A stretch of DNA of 38,012 nucleotides, taken from NCBI GenBank assembly GCA_030444405.1, contig JARFPM010000018.1:1-38012 (forward strand), given 5' to 3'. Source of the DNA: Nitrospira sp. (lineage in GTDB: Bacteria > Nitrospirota > Nitrospiria > Nitrospirales > Nitrospiraceae). Below the pieces are notes generated by a model that saw nothing but the letters and a program-made list of their open reading frames with translations, had not been told where the DNA came from and did no database searches. A program made the translations under genes and the position numbers. This document shows, piece after piece, positions 477 through 25,827 of the stretch (position 1 is its first letter; each line of letters begins with the position of its first letter).

Positions 477-1934
477 ATGAGCAACCCTGGTGATTCCGCG
501 GGAAGACTGTCTGTTGAACTCGGGAACGAGGTTCGTGCTCTCGTTCAAGGTGAATCCCGTTCGGGCGACATTGCCGTAGACGAGCTCGCCTCATCGACCA
601 GAATTCAATCCTGGGAGGTGGCTCAACTTCCCATAGGATGGCGGTTTTCCTCACGCTTACCGATCACTCTGGTCGTACTTTTCCTGCTGGTCATTGTTTT
701 CGTCCCCTGGACTCAGACGATAACCGTAACGGGTCAGATGTCGGCCTATACTCCCTACGAACGACCGCAGGATATCGAAGCCCAGATCACGGGACGCATC
801 AGGAAATGGCACGTGCTGGAAGGTGACCAGGTCAAGGAGGGAGATCTTATTCTCGAACTGGAGGACAATGATCCGAATTTCATGTCCCCCCACCTGCTAG
901 CCTTTCTGGATCAACGCAAGAAGGCTTTGGAGAAGGCCCAGCAAGCAGCCTTGATGAGGATAGACCAGCTCGACAAGCGGATCGTAGAAATGCGGAACCT
1001 GGTCAAAGCCGCAGTTCCGTCCGCAGAGGCCCGTGTCGTTGAATCTGCAAACAAAGTGCGTGAAGCGTACCAGAAGGTAGAGGCAGCCAAAATCGCCGCG
1101 ACGACAGCGGCGCTGAATGTCGAGCGGCACAAGCAACTGTCCAAGAGAGGCTTGGTCTCTCAGCGAGAATTGGAATTGACGATCCAGGCAGACACCGCGA
1201 GCCAAGCAGAACTCGAGGGGGCACGCGCGAATCTTCGCGCGGCCGAAGAGGCGATGAAATCCCTCAGCTTCGGCCGCGACCAAGTCAGCGCAGAGATGTT
1301 ACAGCGGCTGCTCGATGCGGAGGCGGGGCGCGATGCGTCGGTGGCCGAAGCGGCCAAAGTCGGCGACCAGCTGGCCGATGTGTCGCTGCGACTGTCAAAC
1401 GCCGAGCAACGTCGTCTGGCCGGTAAGATTTTAGCTCCAATCGCCGGCACCGTCGTCAAGATGGCCAAGACTGGTGTTGGCGAGACCGTGCGCCAAAGTG
1501 ATACCTTGATCCGACTCTCTCCGACCAGTACGGACAAGGCGATTGAGATGACAGCGGACGGGCTGGATGCCCCCCTGTTGAATGTGGGCCGGAAGGTCAA
1601 AATCCTCTTCTACGGCATCCCCGCCATCCCTCTACCGGCATGGCCTGAACTGATGGCCGGCACCTATTCGGGCGTGATTAAGGTCATCGACCAAGTCGAC
1701 GACGGAAAAGGGAACTACCGGTTTTGGGTTGTTCCAGATCCGGACGATCGAGCCTGGCCGGAACAATCTCACGTGCGGCAGGGGACGAAAGTCATGGGCT
1801 GGGTCATCCTGAACCGTGTGCCTCTCTGGTATGAGCTGTGGCGCCGGTTTAACCTATTCCCACCCGATTACGAGGAACGGTCCCACAGGGTGATCGACAC
1901 GCTTCTCCCTAAGGCAGGACGAGGCTCGAGGTAA
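477..1934 (+). CDS. HlyD-family membrane fusion (periplasmic adaptor) protein
   Basis: This 485-residue protein would link an inner-membrane exporter to a TolC-type outer-membrane channel. It has a cytosolic N-terminus of about 60 residues, one membrane helix at 61-79, the first half of a lipoyl/barrel-sandwich domain at about 106-130, a long alpha-helical coiled-coil hairpin at about 140-315, and the second lipoyl half at about 317-347 (LAPIAGTVVKM). A beta-barrel region follows. This order is the HlyD/type I secretion pattern. No strong ribosome binding site is visible before the ATG. It is convergent with the ABC-type gene at 2003-3703, not co-directional, which is unusual for such loci. 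The substrate is unknown. Confidence 0.85.
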   Translation: MSNPGDSAGRLSVELGNEVRALVQGESRSGDIAVDELASSTRIQSWEVAQLPIGWRFSSRLPITLVVLFLLVIVFVPWTQTITVTGQMSAYTPYERPQDIEAQITGRIRKWHVLEGDQVKEGDLILELEDNDPNFMSPHLLAFLDQRKKALEKAQQAALMRIDQLDKRIVEMRNLVKAAVPSAEARVVESANKVREAYQKVEAAKIAATTAALNVERHKQLSKRGLVSQRELELTIQADTASQAELEGARANLRAAEEAMKSLSFGRDQVSAEMLQRLLDAEAGRDASVAEAAKVGDQLADVSLRLSNAEQRRLAGKILAPIAGTVVKMAKTGVGETVRQSDTLIRLSPTSTDKAIEMTADGLDAPLLNVGRKVKILFYGIPAIPLPAWPELMAGTYSGVIKVIDQVDDGKGNYRFWVVPDPDDRAWPEQSHVRQGTKVMGWVILNRVPLWYELWRRFNLFPPDYEERSHRVIDTLLPKAGRGSR

Positions 1935-2002: not shown

Positions 2003-3703
2003 TCAGGAGGGCAACAGCGGCACGGGTCTGTCCAAACCACCAAGGACGATGCGGCGATCGACATAGGGTGTGAGGTCGGGGTCATTGGAGACAAAAATGA
2101 CCGTCCAGGGCTCATCCTTCGAGCAGAGCCGTCGCAGGATGATGTCTCGCAAGCTCGGTTGCATGTCGTGAATCATGCCGTCAAAAATAAGGAGTTGCGG
2201 TCGCCCCAGAATGGCGCGTGCGAGGAGAATGCGCAACACATGGGTCGGCGCAGGAAGCTCCCCGAGCGCCCTGATATCGGAATTGATTCCCTGCGGGAGG
2301 GTCGCCACTTCATCCTGGAGCTGAGTCAACCACAGTGCCCAACGGACATCGTCGTAAGAGATGTAGGAACGGCGCCACACGATATTCTCTGCGATCGTTC
2401 CGTCGATCAGGGACAGATGTGAATCGATCATGAAGCCACGACATTGATTGACGACGTTCAGATCAAGATGCCGAAGTTCAACATCGTTATAGGAAATGAC
2501 ACCGCTGGTCGGCGGTTCAAGACCAGCCAACACCCTGGCCAAGGACATTCTCGTCGTGGTCGTGGTCGTGTAAATGGCGATCTTCTCGCTGGGGGCCACA
2601 TCCAGATCAAAATCGTCGAGCGCAGACGCACCGTCGTGAATCAGCCCGAGTCCTTTACACGTCACCCGGATACCATGAATCTTCGGGTCAGGGAGGGTCA
2701 CGGATGACGTTGGCGGAGGATGGAGCTGATCTTTCGGCAGCGAGAAGAAAGCATCCAACTCCACCAGGGCTGTGAAGAAGAAATACACCTGCCCCATACT
2801 CTTGACCACTGCATCAAAGTTGATGAGAAGGCTGCCGACCACGACCTCGACGGCAACGAATTGGCCGAGGGTCAATTGCCCGATGGACAGTAGCCAGCCG
2901 GCTAGAGCCAGAGCCCCGCTGTGGGCGAGGGCTTGCCCTCCCACCGAGGCGATAAATTGGCGCAACAGGACGGCGAACCGCGCTCGTCGACATTCCATAT
3001 ACTTCTTCGCGAGTTCATCGGTTTTCTCCACGAGTAACGCCCGGCTGTCGGTCGCCTTGATGTGCAGCAAGTTCTGCGAGATTTCCTGGATCCAGTGCAG
3101 CACGTCATACTTGGCATGAGACATCTCGATGGTAGTCCGCAGTCCTCCGCGAGACAGGACGAAGAAAATGAGGGCTGCTCCGCTTAGCAGGACTAGGTTA
3201 AAGAGAATGAAGTATGGATGATAGAAGACCAATATCATCATCCCAATGACCCCGCCAACGACCACATGGATCAGATCCACGAGTAAGACCGCCAATGCCC
3301 GCTGCATGAAGGCGGTCTCCATAAAGGAATTCGACACCCTCGGTCTGAATCCTTGAAGTTGAATAAGGGGCAGCTTCTGGGCCATCGCGAAAGCGGTTCT
3401 GACAAAGAGCCGACGCTGGAGCACCTCGACCGCGTAGTATTGCAGCGCTTTGAATGCGCCGACCACAGTCAGCACCACCACCATGATAATGGCCAGCGTG
3501 GCGATCATGACCGGTTGGATCGCAAAGGAGAACGTGTTGACCAATTCTTGAACGGTCAAGGGAACGATGAGCGAGAAGAGTCCGATCACAATTGCATAGG
3601 AGAGCACGAGCGCCAAGATCCTACGTTCAAGCCGAACGAAGCGCCCCAAAATCCTCAACACGTGAAACAGGTTAGGCTGATGTGTGTCTGGTGGTTGTCC
3701 CAT
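2003..3703 (-). CDS. ABC-exporter-like membrane protein with degenerate nucleotide-binding domain
   Basis: The 566-residue protein has the layout of a type I exporter half-transporter: about six membrane helices in residues 35-320, then a C-terminal domain in the position of the nucleotide-binding domain. The ATPase motifs are not there. Where the Walker A loop should be (residues 379-384, DNA 2552-2569) stand six consecutive threonines, followed by RMSLARVLAG. The Q-loop position reads MIDSHLSLIDGTIAENI without Gln. The signature region reads ELPAPTHVLRILLARAIL instead of LSGGQ. Walker B reads LLIFDGMIHDM, lacking the catalytic Glu. The H-loop reads FVSND, without His. Flanking segments (DGTIAENI, LLARAIL) remain recognisably ABC-like, so the fold is probably kept. 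The frame is open throughout. It lies downstream of the TolC-type gene on the same strand, 127 bases away. Confidence 0.8.
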   Translation of the reverse strand: MGQPPDTHQPNLFHVLRILGRFVRLERRILALVLSYAIVIGLFSLIVPLTVQELVNTFSFAIQPVMIATLAIIMVVVLTVVGAFKALQYYAVEVLQRRLFVRTAFAMAQKLPLIQLQGFRPRVSNSFMETAFMQRALAVLLVDLIHVVVGGVIGMMILVFYHPYFILFNLVLLSGAALIFFVLSRGGLRTTIEMSHAKYDVLHWIQEISQNLLHIKATDSRALLVEKTDELAKKYMECRRARFAVLLRQFIASVGGQALAHSGALALAGWLLSIGQLTLGQFVAVEVVVGSLLINFDAVVKSMGQVYFFFTALVELDAFFSLPKDQLHPPPTSSVTLPDPKIHGIRVTCKGLGLIHDGASALDDFDLDVAPSEKIAIYTTTTTTRMSLARVLAGLEPPTSGVISYNDVELRHLDLNVVNQCRGFMIDSHLSLIDGTIAENIVWRRSYISYDDVRWALWLTQLQDEVATLPQGINSDIRALGELPAPTHVLRILLARAILGRPQLLIFDGMIHDMQPSLRDIILRRLCSKDEPWTVIFVSNDPDLTPYVDRRIVLGGLDRPVPLLPS

Positions 3704-3830: not shown

Positions 3831-5300
3831 TCAACGGTAACTGACTCGTATGGCGTCGCTCGGCATCTTGGCCCAAGCTCCGATGGCCCATTGGTACAGG
3901 GCTAAGGCTTTGTGGTATTCGGCCTTAGCCCGAATGACATGACTTTGCGAATCGATGGTGTTGCGTTCCCGAAGATTGACGAAGAGCACGCTGGTTGTAC
4001 CAATGCTGAAACGATATCGCTCTCCCTCTTCGACGATTTCCACCAGACGCAGTGCTTGCGAGGCCTCCTCTATTCGTTCCCTTGCTCGCTCAATTGCAGA
4101 CAGTGCATTGTCGATATCAACGACAACTTGGTTTTCCCGGTACTGTTGCGCCACCACGAGTCGCTCTGCCTGGCCCTGGGCCTGAAGCACTTCACCGCGG
4201 CTGCGACGTTGGAAAAGAGGGACCCTCAGTTCGACACCGAATCGGTACCCCAACCCGAGAACAAATTTCTCCGGGGAACGCGCCGGTGCTGCCTCCAAGT
4301 TCAGGCTTGGGAGCAGGTTGTTCTTCGCCAGTGCGAGGTCGATGTTGTTGATCTTCGCCTCTACTTCAAGTTCCTTTACTTCCGGCCGTTCTTTCATCGC
4401 GTCCAGCTTGTGCGTCATAACTTCTTCCGCAGTCGGCAACCGCCTCTCAGTTGGAAATTCCGGGACACGATCTATCGGCGGGATTGTCGGAGAACCATTT
4501 TCCCATAAAAACATGGAGAGCTTGAACTGCTCCTGCTCGAGTAATCGCCGGGCAGCGATGGCCACTTCCCGCCGGCGGTGTACTTCTTGGTCGGCTTCTG
4601 TGACGTCGATCGGGGCAACCGCGCCGGCCTTGGCGCGTGCTTCCACTTGTTTATACCGTTCTTCTGCCACGACTAATGCGCGCTTCTGAACGTCGAGCAG
4701 CTTCGCAGCGGCCACCCAATCCCAGAATTGATGGGCCGCGGCCAGGAAGAGATCTTGCCTCGTTTGGGTAACCTTGATTTCTGCGCGAGGGGCCGCCAAC
4801 TCTGATCGCTGCAGTTCGGCACGCTCGGGGTTGATCATCAGGCCTCTGAGCAAAGGCAAGAAGCCTCCCAGGATGACCTGCTTAGTACCATTGCCGAAGG
4901 ACAGGTCGGGAATGCTCGCCTCGCCGATCGCTTGACGGAACCCGGCGCTGGCTCGAAAGCCCCAAGGATGAAGCGCTTCGACCAGAGTGTCGTTAAACCC
5001 CCCCGTCTGTGTCCCCTTGCCGGGGTCTGCACTTGAAATAAAGCGGTCAAGCTCTGTGTCATTCACGAGAGTTGGTTCAAAGGCGCCGAGAGCCTTCAGC
5101 ATCTGCCCTCGAGCGATCGTTTTTTCAGCTCCTGCCCCCCTCAAGAGCGGATGGGTTCGGTCGATCCTTGAATGAAGTTCCTCAAGAATGAACGGAATAG
5201 GCGGGAGCGATGTGGCCATCGGCAATTCTTTGGCCTGACCAGTGTAGCCGATAACCGGCAGCAGGAGTAACCAGCCGAGAGCGAACGACAGGGTTTTCAT
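3831..5300 (-). CDS. TolC-family outer membrane efflux protein
   Basis: The 489-residue protein starts with a signal peptide (MKTLSFALGWLLLLP, likely cleavage after GQA near residue 23). It then shows the long amphipathic helices of outer-membrane efflux proteins, with two internally similar halves. One contains DLFLAAAHQFWDWVAAAKLL and the other QYRENQVVVDIDNALSAIER followed by RYRFSIGTTSVLFVNLRER. It should form a trimeric channel-tunnel in the outer membrane. The ATG at 5300 is preceded by AAAGGAG and overlaps the stop of a small upstream reading frame as ATGA. With the ABC-type protein downstream and the HlyD-type adaptor nearby it would make a tripartite envelope complex. Confidence 0.88.
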   Translation of the reverse strand: MKTLSFALGWLLLLPVIGYTGQAKELPMATSLPPIPFILEELHSRIDRTHPLLRGAGAEKTIARGQMLKALGAFEPTLVNDTELDRFISSADPGKGTQTGGFNDTLVEALHPWGFRASAGFRQAIGEASIPDLSFGNGTKQVILGGFLPLLRGLMINPERAELQRSELAAPRAEIKVTQTRQDLFLAAAHQFWDWVAAAKLLDVQKRALVVAEERYKQVEARAKAGAVAPIDVTEADQEVHRRREVAIAARRLLEQEQFKLSMFLWENGSPTIPPIDRVPEFPTERRLPTAEEVMTHKLDAMKERPEVKELEVEAKINNIDLALAKNNLLPSLNLEAAPARSPEKFVLGLGYRFGVELRVPLFQRRSRGEVLQAQGQAERLVVAQQYRENQVVVDIDNALSAIERARERIEEASQALRLVEIVEEGERYRFSIGTTSVLFVNLRERNTIDSQSHVIRAKAEYHKALALYQWAIGAWAKMPSDAIRVSYR

Positions 5301-8368: not shown

Positions 8369-8524
8369 ATGAAAACGCCTTTAGCATTAAGTCCTTTCGA
8401 TCCAGACGGCGGCGGCCGTGATGGTGCGAATCAATGCGTAGTCGCTTGGGGGATAGGCTCAAGCAATTTGATGACGAGCGTACTTCTTCCCGCTTCCGGG
8501 TCGAGGTCTGTCACCATGTTTTGA
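8369..8524 (+). CDS. Possible 51-residue small protein, overlaps DUF2294 gene antisense
   Basis: GAGGAGG lies 6-7 bases before ATG 8369, an excellent ribosome binding site in otherwise empty DNA. The frame runs MKTPLALSPFDPDGGGRDGA and on to TGA at 8524. Its last 31 codons overlap the end of the DUF2294 gene on the other strand, which is unusual. It may be a real small gene, a truncated remnant, or the start of a frameshifted gene; a shift of frame would end it at TGA before 8431. No family is recognised. Confidence 0.25.
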   Translation: MKTPLALSPFDPDGGGRDGANQCVVAWGIGSSNLMTSVLLPASGSRSVTMF

Positions 8525-8811
8525 ATCTTCACGCCGATGGCTTGCTCTATTTGTTTCTGTAGCACGTGCTGACAAGAGTCAAACAAGGCACGGTAAAATC
8601 GACGAAGGAGCTCGTGGCCTTCAGGCGATCTTGCGAGTTCCTTCTCCGCTGGAATGGACATGCTTCTTGCTGATGTGACGTAGATGAGCTCGTCGTAAAC
8701 GTAGGCTTGCACGTGCGAATAGGGAGACTTCATAAACTCCGTCTGAAAATTTAAAACGGCGAGCATGACCGCATACTCAATCTCAGCTTTATTGGTGACC
8801 ACACAAGCCAT
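8431..8811 (-). CDS. DUF2294 family protein
   Basis: A 126-residue cytosolic protein. Features typical of DUF2294 are a helical start (NKAEIEYAVMLAVLNFQTEF), the segment AYVYDELIYVTSARSMSIPA with EKELARSPEGHELLRRFYRA, and a closing strand region (VKIQNMVTDLDPEAGRSTLV). The family is widespread and has no proven function. The ATG at 8811 is preceded by GGAGGGG, which lies inside the last codons of the upstream gene; that gene's TAG is three bases before this ATG, so the pair is probably translationally coupled. Confidence 0.75.
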   Translation of the reverse strand: MACVVTNKAEIEYAVMLAVLNFQTEFMKSPYSHVQAYVYDELIYVTSARSMSIPAEKELARSPEGHELLRRFYRALFDSCQHVLQKQIEQAIGVKIQNMVTDLDPEAGRSTLVIKLLEPIPQATTH

Positions 8812-14693: not shown

Positions 14694-17066
14694 TCAATAG
14701 GCTGCGGGCTTCGAAAATGTCCGGTTCGATACAAGATCCAGAATGTGGAGACCGTCAAACTGCGCATCCGTCGAGCCCAGTGCGACCAGCCCCACTTGGC
14801 CTTCTCTTGGGAGGATAGCATCATCGACGGCTGCGACTTGGGTGCCGTCGATGAAGACAGCGAGGCGGCCCTTATCAAGGTGCAAGAAGTTCATGCGTTG
14901 AACCCGTATCGTATGCCAAGGCTTAGGGGAAAGCTTGGTCGCCACTTGCCCCAACAAGGTTGTTACGCCGTCAGTGACGCGACGAGTTGTGACCAAGCCG
15001 GCCGTCGTTTGCAGCGTAATCGCGTAGTAGTTGTTGGCGTCTGCCACGGCAATAGCAATGCCGGCTTCACTCTGGTCCTTTATGCTAGGTGAGCGTACCT
15101 GCACAGTCACGTCGGGATAGGTGGTTCTGATCCCATCTGCCACGAGGAGTCGTACGCAGTCCTGTGTCGGACAGGCAGAGGCGCGGACCAACTGGTGTCC
15201 TCCACTCGCGGAATCCTGATCGACTTGGACTTGCCAAGTCGTCGCGCTCTCATCGTTTCGGTCAAGCCTCAGAAAGCCGGCAGGCGGGAGGCCCAGTTGA
15301 TCTTGATCAAAATTCCATTGCCAGATGATGTTCTGCTTGGGTGGGTTGGCGTGGACGGCCACATCGAGAACTTCGAGTGAACGCGGTGGGCTTGGCAAGA
15401 CGATAGCGGCGGCCTCCGGTGTCAGCGACTTGACGAGATCGTTTGCGACCAGCTGCCCCTGCAGTCCCTTGACCCCAGGGATCCGATCCAAATCCTGCTT
15501 GATTTGCTGCAACCGTTCATAAAATCGATCCAGTTTGCGTGGCACCAGGAGCGATTCAATCGCCACCAGCGCATAGTGCGCATGGATCACGTCGTAAGGC
15601 TGAGCCAATAACCCAGCGGCCTGTTCAGCTTCCGTTTGAGCCTGCTGCAGCCAGGGATGATCGTAACGTCGGTTCCACGAGACAAACTGGATACGATCCC
15701 AGGCAATTTCCGAGAGGATCCTCCCATACTCGACCGTGCCCGTGGCGGTGTCGCGGAGCAGCGCTTCATGGATACCGAGGGCGCTGATCGGATCATTATT
15801 CCATCGGGTCAGAGTGCCAAGACGTCGGCGCTCCTCCGGCGTCGCCGGCGCCTGTCGTGCGAGAGCCTCGTAGGAGGCCAGGGATCGATAGAGGGCGTCT
15901 GCAGCCGGTTCATAGCCCTCTGATACGGCGGTCAATTCCTGCCGCCAGGTTTGTGCTTGAACGGTCCAGTACAGCTCGGTGATCCGCTGCAGAGCTGGCT
16001 CATCGCGGGCCGCCAGACCTCCCTTTGTGACGCCCTGCTTCAGAAAGGCTTGGTAACTATCGCCACCGCGCATTGCATGGGTCTCATTATGTTCCGGATC
16101 GATCAACAAGACACGAGTCAGCAATCCTGCGCGTTCTGCAGATGTGAGATGGGTCGCCTGGTCCAAGGCGGCTTGGATGATCGGCTCCGCGTCAGTACGC
16201 TCCCACCAACGTGCCGATCCAGTGACGAGTTGCCCCCTCAGCAGGGTCTGGGCAGGGTCGGCCTGGTCAAACTTCCGGCCATTATCCGACCGCAGACCGT
16301 AGTGCGTCGCGGCAATCAGCGGCGCGTCGGACAGTACTTCGTTCATCACCGCTCGATCTGCGCTGAAACCGAATTTTCGCAGACCTGTGACCACGATAAA
16401 CCGAACCACCACCTCACGAATGGGCCCAAAGTGTCGCTGAGCACCATTGACCCACCAAATTTCTTCAGGCCTGAGGGCTAGTGGCGCGGTGAGAGGATCG
16501 GGGTACAGGATCTTGATATCAACAGCCTGACCAGGCACCGAGACGAGCGAGCTTCCCTTGATATTCGACAGGGCCAGTGGTTGTAATGGACTGGTTCGTA
16601 CGACGGTTGTTTGGGGAATTGGAGCGTGGTCTTTCAAAATGATCGGTGGAGAGACGAAGACTGCCGGTGGGTAGTCTTTCCAGTTTTCCGTGGCACGATG
16701 TCGGTCAGCCAAGAGCCCAAGCCCGATTCCCCGTCCGGTCGCGTTGAAGACGCCGGACTCTGCTTGTTGGGTCACCATCTGGATATGGCCATGCAGCGTG
16801 TCGTCCCAGCAACGTCGGGCAATTTCTGGGGTCAGTTTCGTCAATCCAACTCCGGCGGCTGCCCGCGCACGGCTGAGGCAGCCCAAGTCCGCTGCGGCCC
16901 ACGTATCGGTCTGTGAGTGGGCCAATGCCTCGACGTACTGCAGCACGAAACGGGCAGCATCATCGCCGGATTTCGTCCGAGCTGGCGCGGCGTGGCCAAC
17001 AAGTGTGCAGGAAACCCCGAATACTCCAGCGATGAGGGCTGCTAGGGTGAGAGATCGCAAGAACAT
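14694..17066 (-). CDS. Large exported protein with C-terminal concanavalin-like domain
   Basis: A protein of about 790 residues with a signal peptide (MFLRSLTLAALIAGVFGV, likely cleavage after HAAPA). I start it at ATG 17066 because of that signal peptide and a nearby AGGAAC; an in-frame ATG at 17162 would put 32 hydrophilic residues in front of it. The middle is mostly helical and repeat-like, with TPR character (ADALYRSLASYEALARQAPA). The last 190 or so residues look like a laminin-G/concanavalin fold as in 3-keto-disaccharide hydrolase (DUF1080) proteins: GIAIAVADANNYYAITLQTT, WHTIRVQRMNF, GRLAVFIDGTQVAAVDDA, GQVGLVALGSTDAQFDGL. Such modules often bind glycans. The overall function is unknown. 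It lies 259 bases downstream of the response regulator gene. Confidence 0.65.
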   Translation of the reverse strand: MFLRSLTLAALIAGVFGVSCTLVGHAAPARTKSGDDAARFVLQYVEALAHSQTDTWAAADLGCLSRARAAAGVGLTKLTPEIARRCWDDTLHGHIQMVTQQAESGVFNATGRGIGLGLLADRHRATENWKDYPPAVFVSPPIILKDHAPIPQTTVVRTSPLQPLALSNIKGSSLVSVPGQAVDIKILYPDPLTAPLALRPEEIWWVNGAQRHFGPIREVVVRFIVVTGLRKFGFSADRAVMNEVLSDAPLIAATHYGLRSDNGRKFDQADPAQTLLRGQLVTGSARWWERTDAEPIIQAALDQATHLTSAERAGLLTRVLLIDPEHNETHAMRGGDSYQAFLKQGVTKGGLAARDEPALQRITELYWTVQAQTWRQELTAVSEGYEPAADALYRSLASYEALARQAPATPEERRRLGTLTRWNNDPISALGIHEALLRDTATGTVEYGRILSEIAWDRIQFVSWNRRYDHPWLQQAQTEAEQAAGLLAQPYDVIHAHYALVAIESLLVPRKLDRFYERLQQIKQDLDRIPGVKGLQGQLVANDLVKSLTPEAAAIVLPSPPRSLEVLDVAVHANPPKQNIIWQWNFDQDQLGLPPAGFLRLDRNDESATTWQVQVDQDSASGGHQLVRASACPTQDCVRLLVADGIRTTYPDVTVQVRSPSIKDQSEAGIAIAVADANNYYAITLQTTAGLVTTRRVTDGVTTLLGQVATKLSPKPWHTIRVQRMNFLHLDKGRLAVFIDGTQVAAVDDAILPREGQVGLVALGSTDAQFDGLHILDLVSNRTFSKPAAY

Positions 17067-17324
17067 GGCGCTTGTTCCTAACAAGTGAAAGGGCAACGAG
17101 TGATTTCCGGCTCGATATTCCCTGTTCCACCGGCATTGTGTGTCACTATCCTGTTTATGCAATCACCGGTCCCGACGTGCGTGGAAGGGGAGCCCGAAAG
17201 CTATTCTGACTGTGTAGGAAAATTGACAAGATTGCGAGACGAGCTTGGGCTTGAATGGGGAAGCAGTTCCGGAGTGTGTGTCGGCGCACAGGAAATAGTG
17301 CGGAGGTGCGGCTGCGCTCAGTTC

Positions 17325-22506: not shown

Positions 22507-25500
22507 ATGGCCAAGAAGCAAGGAGATTCCAAGCTGGCAGTAGCGGGAACTATTACGCTGGGGCTGGCGATTGCCGGAGTGATGTTGGTTCAGCAACCGC
22601 TGAAGAGCACGAGGCCCCCGTCTTTGGGGAGTGCACTCAAGCCGCAGGTTTCCGAAGGCGTCGTGCAGGCCAGGCTGTGGGAGGACCCGCTGGAAGCCGC
22701 GCGGCGCGCGGCGACATTCGACGGCGCGGCCAAGAAGACGACCGGGACCGCCCAGAATGATGTGGACCGGGTCGGGGCCATCCGTAAGGAGGTGGATGAC
22801 CGGATCAAGCAAGGCCAGGGCGGGCCCATCACCGTCCTGCTCGTGATGACGGAAGGCGGGGCCTCAGGTGAAAGCCGTGAGACCCGCATTCGAGATCGCT
22901 ACGCCATAGGCTCGGCTCTCGGCGTTGCCTGTTTTATCCCACAGGGAGATGATGAATTGTCCTATGTGGAGTGGCGCGACCGGACGGGAATGAGCCGGGT
23001 CTTGCCCTACGAGTGGTACGGGCAAGGGCCGAGGAAATGTTCGCTGGATCCGGATTGGGCGCAGGCCGTGCTCGTCCTGTGGATCAGCAGCGAGATCACG
23101 GGCGATCGGCCCATCGCGATGCTGACACATCTCACGCAGTCCATCCTATGCGAGAGGAGCGCCATCGGCGCCTGCCAGCAAGGAAGGGAGGGAGATGGGA
23201 CGGTGCTGCTGGATCTTCACCGGGAACAGCAGGTGCGATTCAAGATCATGGGGCCGCGGAGTTCATCCGGCTTTCGGAATCTGCTTGAGGAAGCGGCCGG
23301 CTCCGTCAAGGGCCGCGAGGATCACGTGATCTGGGCCAACGCAGGCGGCCGTGTGGAGCTGTACTCGCCTTGGGCCACCGCCATGCCGAAACTCCTGACG
23401 CAGGACATCAGCGTGACGGCCAAGCCTGCGGGGTCCAACGAATGTGTCTCCTCCGATGCGAGCCGGGCACAACTCTGCTGGATTCTGTTGCGGGCCGGGA
23501 TCGAGCTGAAACACAGCATCGGCTCCGATGATCAGTTGTTTGAGGCACTGGTTTATGAGCTGGAACGCCGCCGGGTGAAGTTCGAGAGGGATGCCGTGAT
23601 CCTCATTGCGGAATGGGATTCCTTCTACGGCCGGGTGATGCCGGTCGAGTTCACCGCCACTGTGTGCCATCGCATCGCGCATCGACCCTCCGAAGAGAAC
23701 TGGGCGATCGAGCCGGACCGGCTGGCCCTCATCCGGTCGAAATGTGACACGGTCGATCAGGCGATTGATCTTCAGGTGAACGATCCGGTCGGGACAAGGG
23801 GGCTGGGCCTGAACATATGGCGGTACAGTTATCTGCGCGGGCTCGATGGCGAAGTCTCCGGCGGACAGACCGGAAATTCGGCAAAAGCGGCCGCATTGCA
23901 GTCGCTGAAGAATGTCCTGCTCGATACCCAGGTGCGTGAACGCCCGATCGGCACAAGCCAGTTCGACTATGTCCAGCGGCTGGCCGCCCGCATCGAGCGG
24001 GATATGGCCGAGGAATCCAATCTTCAGCAGGCGGCCGGTGATTCGGCGACGGGGAACGAGGAACCCGGCCGCAAGCCGCCCGCTGCCATCGGCATTCTCG
24101 GCAGCGATGCCTACGATGCGTTGTTGATTTTGCAGGCTATGCGCGAGCGGTTCCCCGGCGTCGTCTTCTTCACCACTGATCTGGACAGCCGGTTGGTCTA
24201 TGCCGACGACTACCGCTGGACGAGGAATCTCGTTATCTCATCCCATTACGGGCTGGAATTGTATGACAGCTTGCAGCGAGACGTGCCGCCGTTCCGCAGC
24301 AGCTATCAAACATCGACCTACTTGGCGACGCTCCAGGCCGTGGGGCATGTGCGTCCGCTGGCCGACTGCCCGCCGATTGCCGGGCGGTCAAACGCGCCCG
24401 CCGGCGCGTTCTTGTCGCCATGCGGCTACCAGGCCAACCGAGTTTCTGATGAGGTGTGGTTCAGCGGGGTGGAGCCTCCCCGGATGTTCGAAGTCGGCCG
24501 TCACGGTGCGGTCGATCTGACGGTAGGGGCGGTGTCCGAAGGCTATACTCTGCATGCCCCTCGTGTAGATCTCTCTAACGATAATCCCCAAACTGGCGGT
24601 CGGCGGCCTCCTTCCGGCACCCTCTACGGCACGGCGGGCCTGGCCTACATGATCGGCTTCGTCATCCTCTGGACCAAGCCGGCCAGCTACCGTTGGATGA
24701 CGGCGCACATGGGTTTGCTGGTGCTTGGCGCCGTGGGTGCCTTTGGGCTGGCCTTTGTCGTAGACAAGTTTCTCCTCGATCTCATCTTGCAGCATCATGA
24801 CGGGGGGGAGCCGTTTTACTGGTTGGAAGGGGTGAGCATTTGGCCGACGGAAATTCTTCGAGCCCTGGCCACGTTGCTGGCGATCGGTTTTCTCATCAAG
24901 GCCTGGCGTGACCTCCGGTCAAATAGTGAGAGGATGACAGACCGCTACGGCTTTGGGGTTCCGGAGGAAACGGGTCAGACGGAGGGGTGGCGGCAGTATC
25001 TCAGAATGGCTGAGTGGGTCCTGTCCCCCCGGAGCCGGGGAAACAACGACCAGGTCGATGCCTTGTGGGAACGGTACCGGAATGCCGGGTCCGGCCGGCA
25101 GCGCATCCCGCGGCTGTTCCTGCTCGTGGTGATTTATGCCATGTCGTTTCTCCTGCTCTGGAAAGTGACGGGCGCCGAAGACATGTCGGGACCGTGCCGC
25201 GGGACATTTAGCTGCCGGCTGGATCTTATCTCCGTGATCGCGAGTTACATCGTTCTGGTCGTGCTCAATCTCTTTGTCTTCGACGCCGTGCTCCTGTGCC
25301 GGCGCTGGATCGGCGCCTTGACACAGGCCACGGAGGGGTGGCCTCAGGAGTTGACGAAGCGCCTCAAATTGCAGTCGGCCGAGAATCTGGCCAAAGCACG
25401 GGAGTTGATGAAAATTGAGCTTATCGCGCAGCGGACGGAAGTGGTGAACCGGCTTGTGCGATATCCCTTCATTGTGTTGCTCATCATGATCGTGGCGCGC

Positions 25501-25827
25501 AACAATTATTTCGATGATTGGCATTTTCCGTTGACGATGATCGCAGGCTGGTCGGCGAATGTGTTCCTCGCCCTGACAGCGGCGCTGTTGCTCTACCGGG
25601 CGGCGGAGCAGGCGCGCAATGCGGGTGTGGCACGGCTCAATCACTCGGTTTTGCAGGGGCTGGATCGCGGCGCACAGAACGATGCCGACGTGAAGCTGAC
25701 CCGCCAGGTCATTGACGACATCGAAGCGGTCGGCCAGGGAGCCTTCGTGCCCCTGTGGCAGCAGCCTGTCGTCGAGTCGTCGTTTTACGGCCTGCTGGCA
25801 CTGCTTCAGTATCTCTACCTGAGTTAG
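22507..25827 (+). CDS. Giant membrane protein with receptor-like extracytoplasmic region, unknown function
   Basis: The 1106-residue protein has an N-terminal membrane helix (LAVAGTITLGLAIAGVMLV), about 650 residues presumably outside the membrane, then about seven hydrophobic helices (for example YGTAGLAYMIGFVILW, MGLLVLGAVGAFGLAFVV, ILRALATLLAIGFLIKAW, LFLLVVIYAMSFLLLW, VIASYIVLVVLNLFVF and two more near the end). Two segments of the large domain look like alpha/beta sugar- or amino-acid-binding folds (periplasmic binding protein type I). One lies near ITVLLVMTEGG with RYAIGSALGVACFIPQ; the other is AIGILGSDAYDALLILQAMR followed by FPGVVFFTTDLDSRLVYA. I know no characterised homologue. The stop is 10 bases before the esterase gene, so the two are likely one operon. 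The domain assignment is tentative. Confidence 0.7.
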   Translation: MAKKQGDSKLAVAGTITLGLAIAGVMLVQQPLKSTRPPSLGSALKPQVSEGVVQARLWEDPLEAARRAATFDGAAKKTTGTAQNDVDRVGAIRKEVDDRIKQGQGGPITVLLVMTEGGASGESRETRIRDRYAIGSALGVACFIPQGDDELSYVEWRDRTGMSRVLPYEWYGQGPRKCSLDPDWAQAVLVLWISSEITGDRPIAMLTHLTQSILCERSAIGACQQGREGDGTVLLDLHREQQVRFKIMGPRSSSGFRNLLEEAAGSVKGREDHVIWANAGGRVELYSPWATAMPKLLTQDISVTAKPAGSNECVSSDASRAQLCWILLRAGIELKHSIGSDDQLFEALVYELERRRVKFERDAVILIAEWDSFYGRVMPVEFTATVCHRIAHRPSEENWAIEPDRLALIRSKCDTVDQAIDLQVNDPVGTRGLGLNIWRYSYLRGLDGEVSGGQTGNSAKAAALQSLKNVLLDTQVRERPIGTSQFDYVQRLAARIERDMAEESNLQQAAGDSATGNEEPGRKPPAAIGILGSDAYDALLILQAMRERFPGVVFFTTDLDSRLVYADDYRWTRNLVISSHYGLELYDSLQRDVPPFRSSYQTSTYLATLQAVGHVRPLADCPPIAGRSNAPAGAFLSPCGYQANRVSDEVWFSGVEPPRMFEVGRHGAVDLTVGAVSEGYTLHAPRVDLSNDNPQTGGRRPPSGTLYGTAGLAYMIGFVILWTKPASYRWMTAHMGLLVLGAVGAFGLAFVVDKFLLDLILQHHDGGEPFYWLEGVSIWPTEILRALATLLAIGFLIKAWRDLRSNSERMTDRYGFGVPEETGQTEGWRQYLRMAEWVLSPRSRGNNDQVDALWERYRNAGSGRQRIPRLFLLVVIYAMSFLLLWKVTGAEDMSGPCRGTFSCRLDLISVIASYIVLVVLNLFVFDAVLLCRRWIGALTQATEGWPQELTKRLKLQSAENLAKARELMKIELIAQRTEVVNRLVRYPFIVLLIMIVARNNYFDDWHFPLTMIAGWSANVFLALTAALLLYRAAEQARNAGVARLNHSVLQGLDRGAQNDADVKLTRQVIDDIEAVGQGAFVPLWQQPVVESSFYGLLALLQYLYLS

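Follow-up and report, generated by a model that had tools for sequence, protein, structure and literature searches.

The window analysed here, a stretch of 38,012 nucleotides covering positions 1 to 38,012 of contig JARFPM010000018.1 of Nitrospira sp., encodes a protein that we interpret, with a probability of roughly 60%, as a pseudo-ATPase, i.e., an ABC-exporter-fold subunit of a HlyD-TolC conduit in which the nucleotide-binding domain (NBD) would act as a scaffold or gate. Judged from the aligned sequences, the whole family has lost the residues needed to hydrolyse ATP, and the clade of the window gene has also lost those needed to bind it. Because the catalytic parts are lost in all members examined, and the whole NBD in some, the export machine probably draws on an energy source other than ATP hydrolysis of its own. 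The gene, its neighbours and the places of the former motifs are located in the window as follows:

477..1934, plus strand: HlyD-type periplasmic adaptor, 485 aa (Pfam HlyD_3, E 2e-8; Biotin_lipoyl_2)
2003..3703, minus strand: ABC-exporter-fold protein, 566 aa, uninterrupted ORF with ATG start; six-helix membrane domain at residues ~27-322 and degenerate NBD at ~346-556
2084..2086, minus strand: Asn540, at the position of the H-loop His
2177..2182, minus strand: Asp508-Gly509, Walker B, with the Asp kept and the catalytic Glu replaced by Gly
2240..2254, minus strand: PAPTH (residues 484-488), at the position of the LSGGQ signature by motif alignment
2423..2425, minus strand: Asp427, at the position of the Q-loop Gln by motif alignment
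2552..2569, minus strand: six Thr codons (residues 379-384) at the Walker A/P-loop position, followed by Arg385-Met386
3032..3085, minus strand: second intracellular (coupling-helix) loop, residues 207-224, which decays in NBD-less sisters
3831..5300, minus strand: TolC-type outer-membrane factor, 489 aa (Pfam OEP, E 2e-35)

Pfam bore out that the ABC gene lies between HlyD- and TolC-type genes, as an earlier note on this DNA had claimed, with the correction that the HlyD gene and the ABC-TolC pair are transcribed towards each other and not in the same direction. Adaptor and outer-membrane factor genes are thus adjacent to the ABC gene, as in a tripartite HlyD-TolC system, and this neighbourhood is conserved. 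The ABC protein itself scored 19 bits against Pfam ABC_tran (PF00005), under the 25-bit gathering cut-off, and fell below the cut-offs of three NCBIfam type I secretion permease/ATPase models, with 87 bits for TIGR03375 (cut-off 693), 81 for TIGR01842 (510) and 58 for TIGR01846 (726). Elsewhere in the window, a small MpsC-domain protein (Na+-translocating membrane-potential system) is encoded, apparently alone, at 8431-8811, and two large proteins of 822 and 1106 aa (14694-17162 and 22507-25827) had zero Pfam matches at E 1e-4.

Comparison with the catalytic residues expected of ABC_tran (GxxGxGK[ST], LSGGQ, DE, Q-loop Gln and H-loop His) revealed that the window protein keeps only the Walker B Asp. 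The earlier statement that all ATPase motifs are gone therefore stands for Walker A, the Q-loop Gln, LSGGQ, the Walker B Glu and the H-loop His, and does not stand for Asp508; the six Thr codons occupy the Walker A place exactly as had been described, and the single open frame reported through the membrane domain and the NBD fold runs without interruption. Four ordinary exporters from the same genome, passed through the same alignment procedure as a control, had intact motifs, one of them (L005) with the signature variant LSVGQ. The Thr run is encoded by ACG ACC ACG ACC ACG ACG, with Arg-Met where Lys-Ser/Thr belongs, and is common only to the window gene and its nearest orthologue (L009, 90% identical). 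Since the orthologue spells it in other codons (ACG ACG ACG ACA ACG ACG), the run cannot be put down to an assembly slip, nor to a fresh microsatellite alone. A frameshift, or a Walker A hidden in another frame, was rejected: the other minus-strand frames read RHLHDHDHDENV and PFTRPRPRREC, with no intact Walker A in either, as had been claimed, and the same peptide in different codons in the orthologue counters this possibility as well.

The general fold of the NBD was said to persist, and structure prediction agrees. The AlphaFold2 model gave the NBD a pLDDT of ~80-90 and the membrane part a low-confidence pLDDT of ~50-70. The best Foldseek match was the HlyB/HlyD complex, with TAP and TmrAB also among the best structural matches, and VIA-align superimposed the NBD alone on the TAP1 ATPase domain with Z 24.2 over 231 residues (rmsd 3.1). 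Based on these predictions, the protein has a type IV ABC-exporter fold, composed of a six-helix membrane domain, modelled at low confidence, and an NBD.

At least one copy of the gene was found in 121 of the 147 Nitrospiraceae genomes sampled. The window genome carries two copies, 58% identical to each other; named relatives, 73-85% identical in a contig scan with patterns that reach close relatives only, mark it as a Nitrospira. Among 114 aligned Nitrospirales homologues, the Q-loop Gln was replaced by Asp and the Walker B Glu by Gly in every sequence; the canonical LSGGQ occurred in none, its first Gly being replaced in all, and the H-loop His was also missing throughout, with Asn, Thr or Ser instead. 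Residue 512 was His in 114/114, giving DGxxH where ordinary exporters have DEATS, and the Walker B Asp was retained in 108. Because the Q-loop and Walker B Glu replacements are common to all 114 homologues, the loss of motifs is not due to chance.

Selection was examined between the window gene and 13 orthologues. Over the whole gene, dN/dS came to 0.08-0.145; taken separately, the membrane domain had 0.05-0.11 and the NBD 0.09-0.21, and the pooled segments of the former motifs had a pN/pS of 0.06-0.16. A family profile (A3), built from 20 members and searched through whole genomes, separated family members (at least ~366 bits) from ordinary exporters (at most ~115 bits) in each searched genome, with the exception of one 112-residue fragment of a broken copy in genome G074. 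The profile search found almost no internal stops in the family; the stops inside several sequence-search matches came from alignments overrunning the natural C-terminus. The lost catalytic motifs and the broken copy in G074 are what a decaying pseudogene of an ordinary exporter might leave, a reading to which we give next to no weight, as conservation across phyla speaks against it and purifying selection, uninterrupted frames and conserved replacements refute it at the level of the whole family. The constrained non-ATPase role that the earlier note had proposed is instead supported by purifying selection that covers the membrane domain and the NBD, former motif segments included, by the family-wide defect and by the conserved HlyD/TolC cassette. 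Intact homologues in close relatives and relaxed selection, either of which the note would have taken as a sign of decay, were both looked for, and neither was found.

The cassette extends beyond Nitrospira. A second Nitrospirales family has full-length members that are equally degenerate. Phyla outside Nitrospirota were sampled through plasmids only, where tblastn recovered Bacteroidota loci (Persicobacter, Aureibacter, Riemerella) and Sphingomonadales loci with the same gene arrangement, ABC-HlyD-TolC. A cassette is also found on plasmid pNL2 of Novosphingobium aromaticivorans DSM 12444 (L214). The 17 full-length plasmid loci inspected from these groups were degenerate without exception; at an eighteenth, from Sphingopyxis, the gene is cut short and a gene for an IS3 transposase adjoins it. 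HlyD and TolC neighbours were present at nearly all group-A, second-family and plasmid loci. Profiles of the Nitrospirota and Sphingomonadales proteins aligned over 513 columns (E 9e-52), and in a tree built from only the membrane domain a single branch with an SH-aLRT of 100 split 45 degenerate sequences from six ordinary exporters. A single origin of the degenerate family is likely and not proven, because the ordinary sample is small and the branches are long, as the tree program warns. On the strength of these sequence comparisons, the cassette family is older than Nitrospira. Public annotation of the relatives reads 'ABC transporter ATP-binding protein', a label that we consider misleading.

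Within the second Nitrospirales family, members L200-L202 are ~340 aa long and end before the NBD, still in a HlyD-TolC operon, and in their transmembrane stretches they share 64-79% identity with full-length sisters. The membrane part is thus under selection with or without an NBD. In exporters, the coupling helix that reaches the NBD sits in the loop between helices 4 and 5. Over the corresponding residues 207-224, identity between NBD-less and full-length proteins was 26% and 6%, in comparison to 74% and 33% between two clades that both keep the NBD; only one other window of low identity was found, residues 108-116, and it was low in both comparisons. Since this loop decays in the NBD-less sisters while the helices stay 64-79% identical, residues 207-224 are probably held in full-length members by contact with the pseudo-NBD. 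The NBD-less cassettes adjoin a DabA gene (inorganic carbon uptake), a Mrp/NuoL-like gene and a LysR regulator, and on a Sphingobium plasmid (L220) a DUF2309 (DabA-type) gene lies directly upstream of the cassette, with a LysR-type regulator downstream.

Walker A has been lost by degrees. The motif is SGTSTGKTT in basal and tandem copies and ARTTGAKT in the second Nitrospira copy, and sequences of the window clade range from ARTTxARM to TTTTTTRM, such that the six-Thr Walker A of the window appears in the alignment as the extreme end of a graded erosion, the remaining losses being family-wide. As the Walker A Lys is kept in 94/114 homologues, most of the family may still bind ATP, and such binding could bring about conformational change. 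It is conceivable that most members bind nucleotide and that ATP binding alone opens or closes a non-hydrolytic conduit, as the Thr at the end of Walker A (87/114), the SGTSTGKTT of basal and tandem copies and the frequent Walker B Asp would allow. We regard this as unlikely: the fourth-position Gly of Walker A is lost in 114/114 and the sixth-position Gly in 101/114, the window clade has Arg in place of Lys and Met after it, the P-loop is almost wholly gone in the second family and Sphingomonadales, and some members have no NBD at all.

An ATPase could also be supplied from elsewhere, with the degenerate protein paired with an intact ABC half, as the earlier note had suggested, or filling one or two of the three dimer positions of a HlyB-like hexamer. 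Many heterodimeric exporters have one degenerate site, and conserve it (PMC7756269), and the window genome encodes four ordinary exporters. In addition, the HlyB/HlyD complex, our best Foldseek match, contains several ABC dimers. The search for a co-occurring intact half gave no such partner. Tandem second copies, present in several Nitrospiraceae genera, are degenerate as well, and a regular expression that recovered 5/6 control exporters gave no intact NBD at any of 110 cassette loci; an active tandem partner is therefore rejected. No intact sibling in Nitrospirota was detected in the searched genomes with profile A3, the interval between ~115 and ~366 bits being empty apart from the fragment of the broken G074 copy. 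Genomes G006 and G051, both small and nearly complete, have the gene and no more than two or three ordinary ABC membrane domains, and in these the type I secretion (T1SS) exporter model TIGR03375 gave no match above ~335 bits, in comparison to 570 for the T1SS-type exporter of the window genome. Furthermore, classical heterodimers keep one site intact, whereas here every site is lost and some members lack the NBD. The suggested pairing with an intact half was thus not borne out, and we consider a heteromer of either kind improbable.

A secondary SecA was considered as the engine of the cassette and rejected. The window genome has SecA_DEAD genes on contigs C35 and C8, none of them in the window, and the SecA/HlyD/OEP cluster on C8 (G000:C8) is a separate locus with HlyD and OEP genes of its own. 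There (L228), the secondary SecA is in two overlapping frames, either a real split or a sequencing error, beside two HlyD genes, an OEP gene and a nearby RTX-repeat protein, an arrangement that resembles the module of PMC4452313. In that study, Kamneva et al. reported in Nitrospirae a SecA_DEAD-HlyD-M50 module that is T1SS-like without an ABC ATPase. The likeness to the window cassette lies in these same features; however, the module has no ABC protein and the window locus has no SecA_DEAD gene. We therefore rejected PMC4452313 as a prior description, its loci being without an ABC homologue.

The neighbourhoods of other copies raise the question of whether the protein is a transporter at all, or a sensor that passes envelope signals to neighbouring sensory proteins. 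In most Nitrospiraceae loci, those of the window and paralogue clades apart, the gene after the ABC gene encodes a stand-alone four-helix-bundle sensory protein (4HB_MCP_1), solitary ABC copies adjoin a PAS histidine kinase and an NtrC-type regulator, and LysR/OxyR-type regulators adjoin second-family and Sphingomonadales cassettes. This signalling role is quite doubtful in our view, as the sensory partner varies by lineage and none lies beside the window copy, and the conserved HlyD and TolC partners favour an envelope-spanning conduit. The 4HB_MCP_1 protein is ~263 aa long and has no output domain (L113:2814-3602, L117:7193-7981 and equivalents). The solitary degenerate ABC genes (L126, L127, L207, L208 and L209) are without HlyD/TolC; a PAS kinase is found with them and, in most, an NtrC-type regulator.

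In the preferred reading, a pseudo-ATPase subunit of a HlyD-TolC conduit, the window protein would dimerise in a type IV-like manner, its pseudo-NBDs would dock on the cytoplasmic side as a scaffold or gate, and the inner-membrane subunit would join HlyD and TolC in an envelope-spanning conduit. Opening and transport would be driven otherwise than by hydrolysis at this NBD, most plausibly by a proton or substrate gradient, by analogy with SbmA. SbmA is NBD-less, proton-driven and without coupling helices, and descends from ABC exporters that lost the NBD (PMC13316013). By this analogy, proton-driven SbmA would be the closest precedent: SbmA/BacA (SLiPT) has a membrane domain of the ABC-exporter type that needs no ATP hydrolysis to function, as is probably true of the family, and the NBD-less L200-L202 lost the NBD and coupling loop 2 where SbmA lost the NBD and coupling helices. 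In contrast, most family members keep a pseudo-NBD and have HlyD/TolC, whereas SbmA has no such partners and imports. SLiPT proteins have neither an NBD nor coupling helices; the window protein keeps its NBD and falls outside this class, only L200-L202 being NBD-less, and a Pfam match to SbmA_BacA was not obtained. Three charged or polar membrane-domain residues, Q52, H162 and E286, are conserved in the family and absent from ordinary exporters. Proton coupling is a hypothesis only, and a clean 'glutamate ladder' is doubtful, because E286 is nearly conserved but Gln in 3/26 family-1 sequences, including the paralogue of the window genome.

Two other known systems are close. Type I secretion (HlyB-HlyD-TolC) shares the HlyD and TolC/OEP partner genes, the type IV exporter fold and the Foldseek match; the window protein differs in having no catalytic motifs and no C39-like N-terminal domain, and in its score far under the TIGR03375 cut-off. 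Heterodimeric exporters (TmrAB, TM287/288, TAP) share a conserved degenerate NBD, and TAP and TmrAB are structurally close; these keep one functional site, whereas in the family each of two tandem halves is degenerate, and the search for an intact sibling was negative. The open-access literature searched contained no published description of a degenerate ABC exporter family with HlyD/TolC. The components are known, and what that literature did not show is their combination, a tripartite cassette of three phyla in which the exporter is ATPase-dead throughout the family. More broadly, the odds appear about even that these proteins represent an unrecognised, widespread class of tripartite envelope machines, found at least in Nitrospirota, Bacteroidota and Alphaproteobacteria, in which an ABC exporter has been made into a non-hydrolytic transporter or channel; its graded stages would be a nearly intact P-loop, the six-Thr P-loop and the absence of the NBD.

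The cassette adjoins purE/purK in several genera (L058, with the Nitrospira moscoviensis homologue, L203 and L229), and the window copy lies beside a transhydrogenase-type gene. The recurrence of purE/purK in several genera suggests that this locus is ancestral and that the window copy may be a relocated duplicate. The second Nitrospira cassette copy (L229 at G000:C74, and L059-L101) usually has three tandem, diverged TolC genes, ~44-52% identical to the TolC of the window, whose products could assemble into a mixed trimer.

The ATPase is what defines an ABC transporter, and this family lets one ask how an exporter powered by ATP turns into a secondary transporter or a passive conduit; it also bears on the role of a pseudo-NBD and on what energises the conduit. 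Nitrospira are environmentally central nitrite oxidisers and comammox bacteria, and most of the Nitrospira genomes sampled have the gene.
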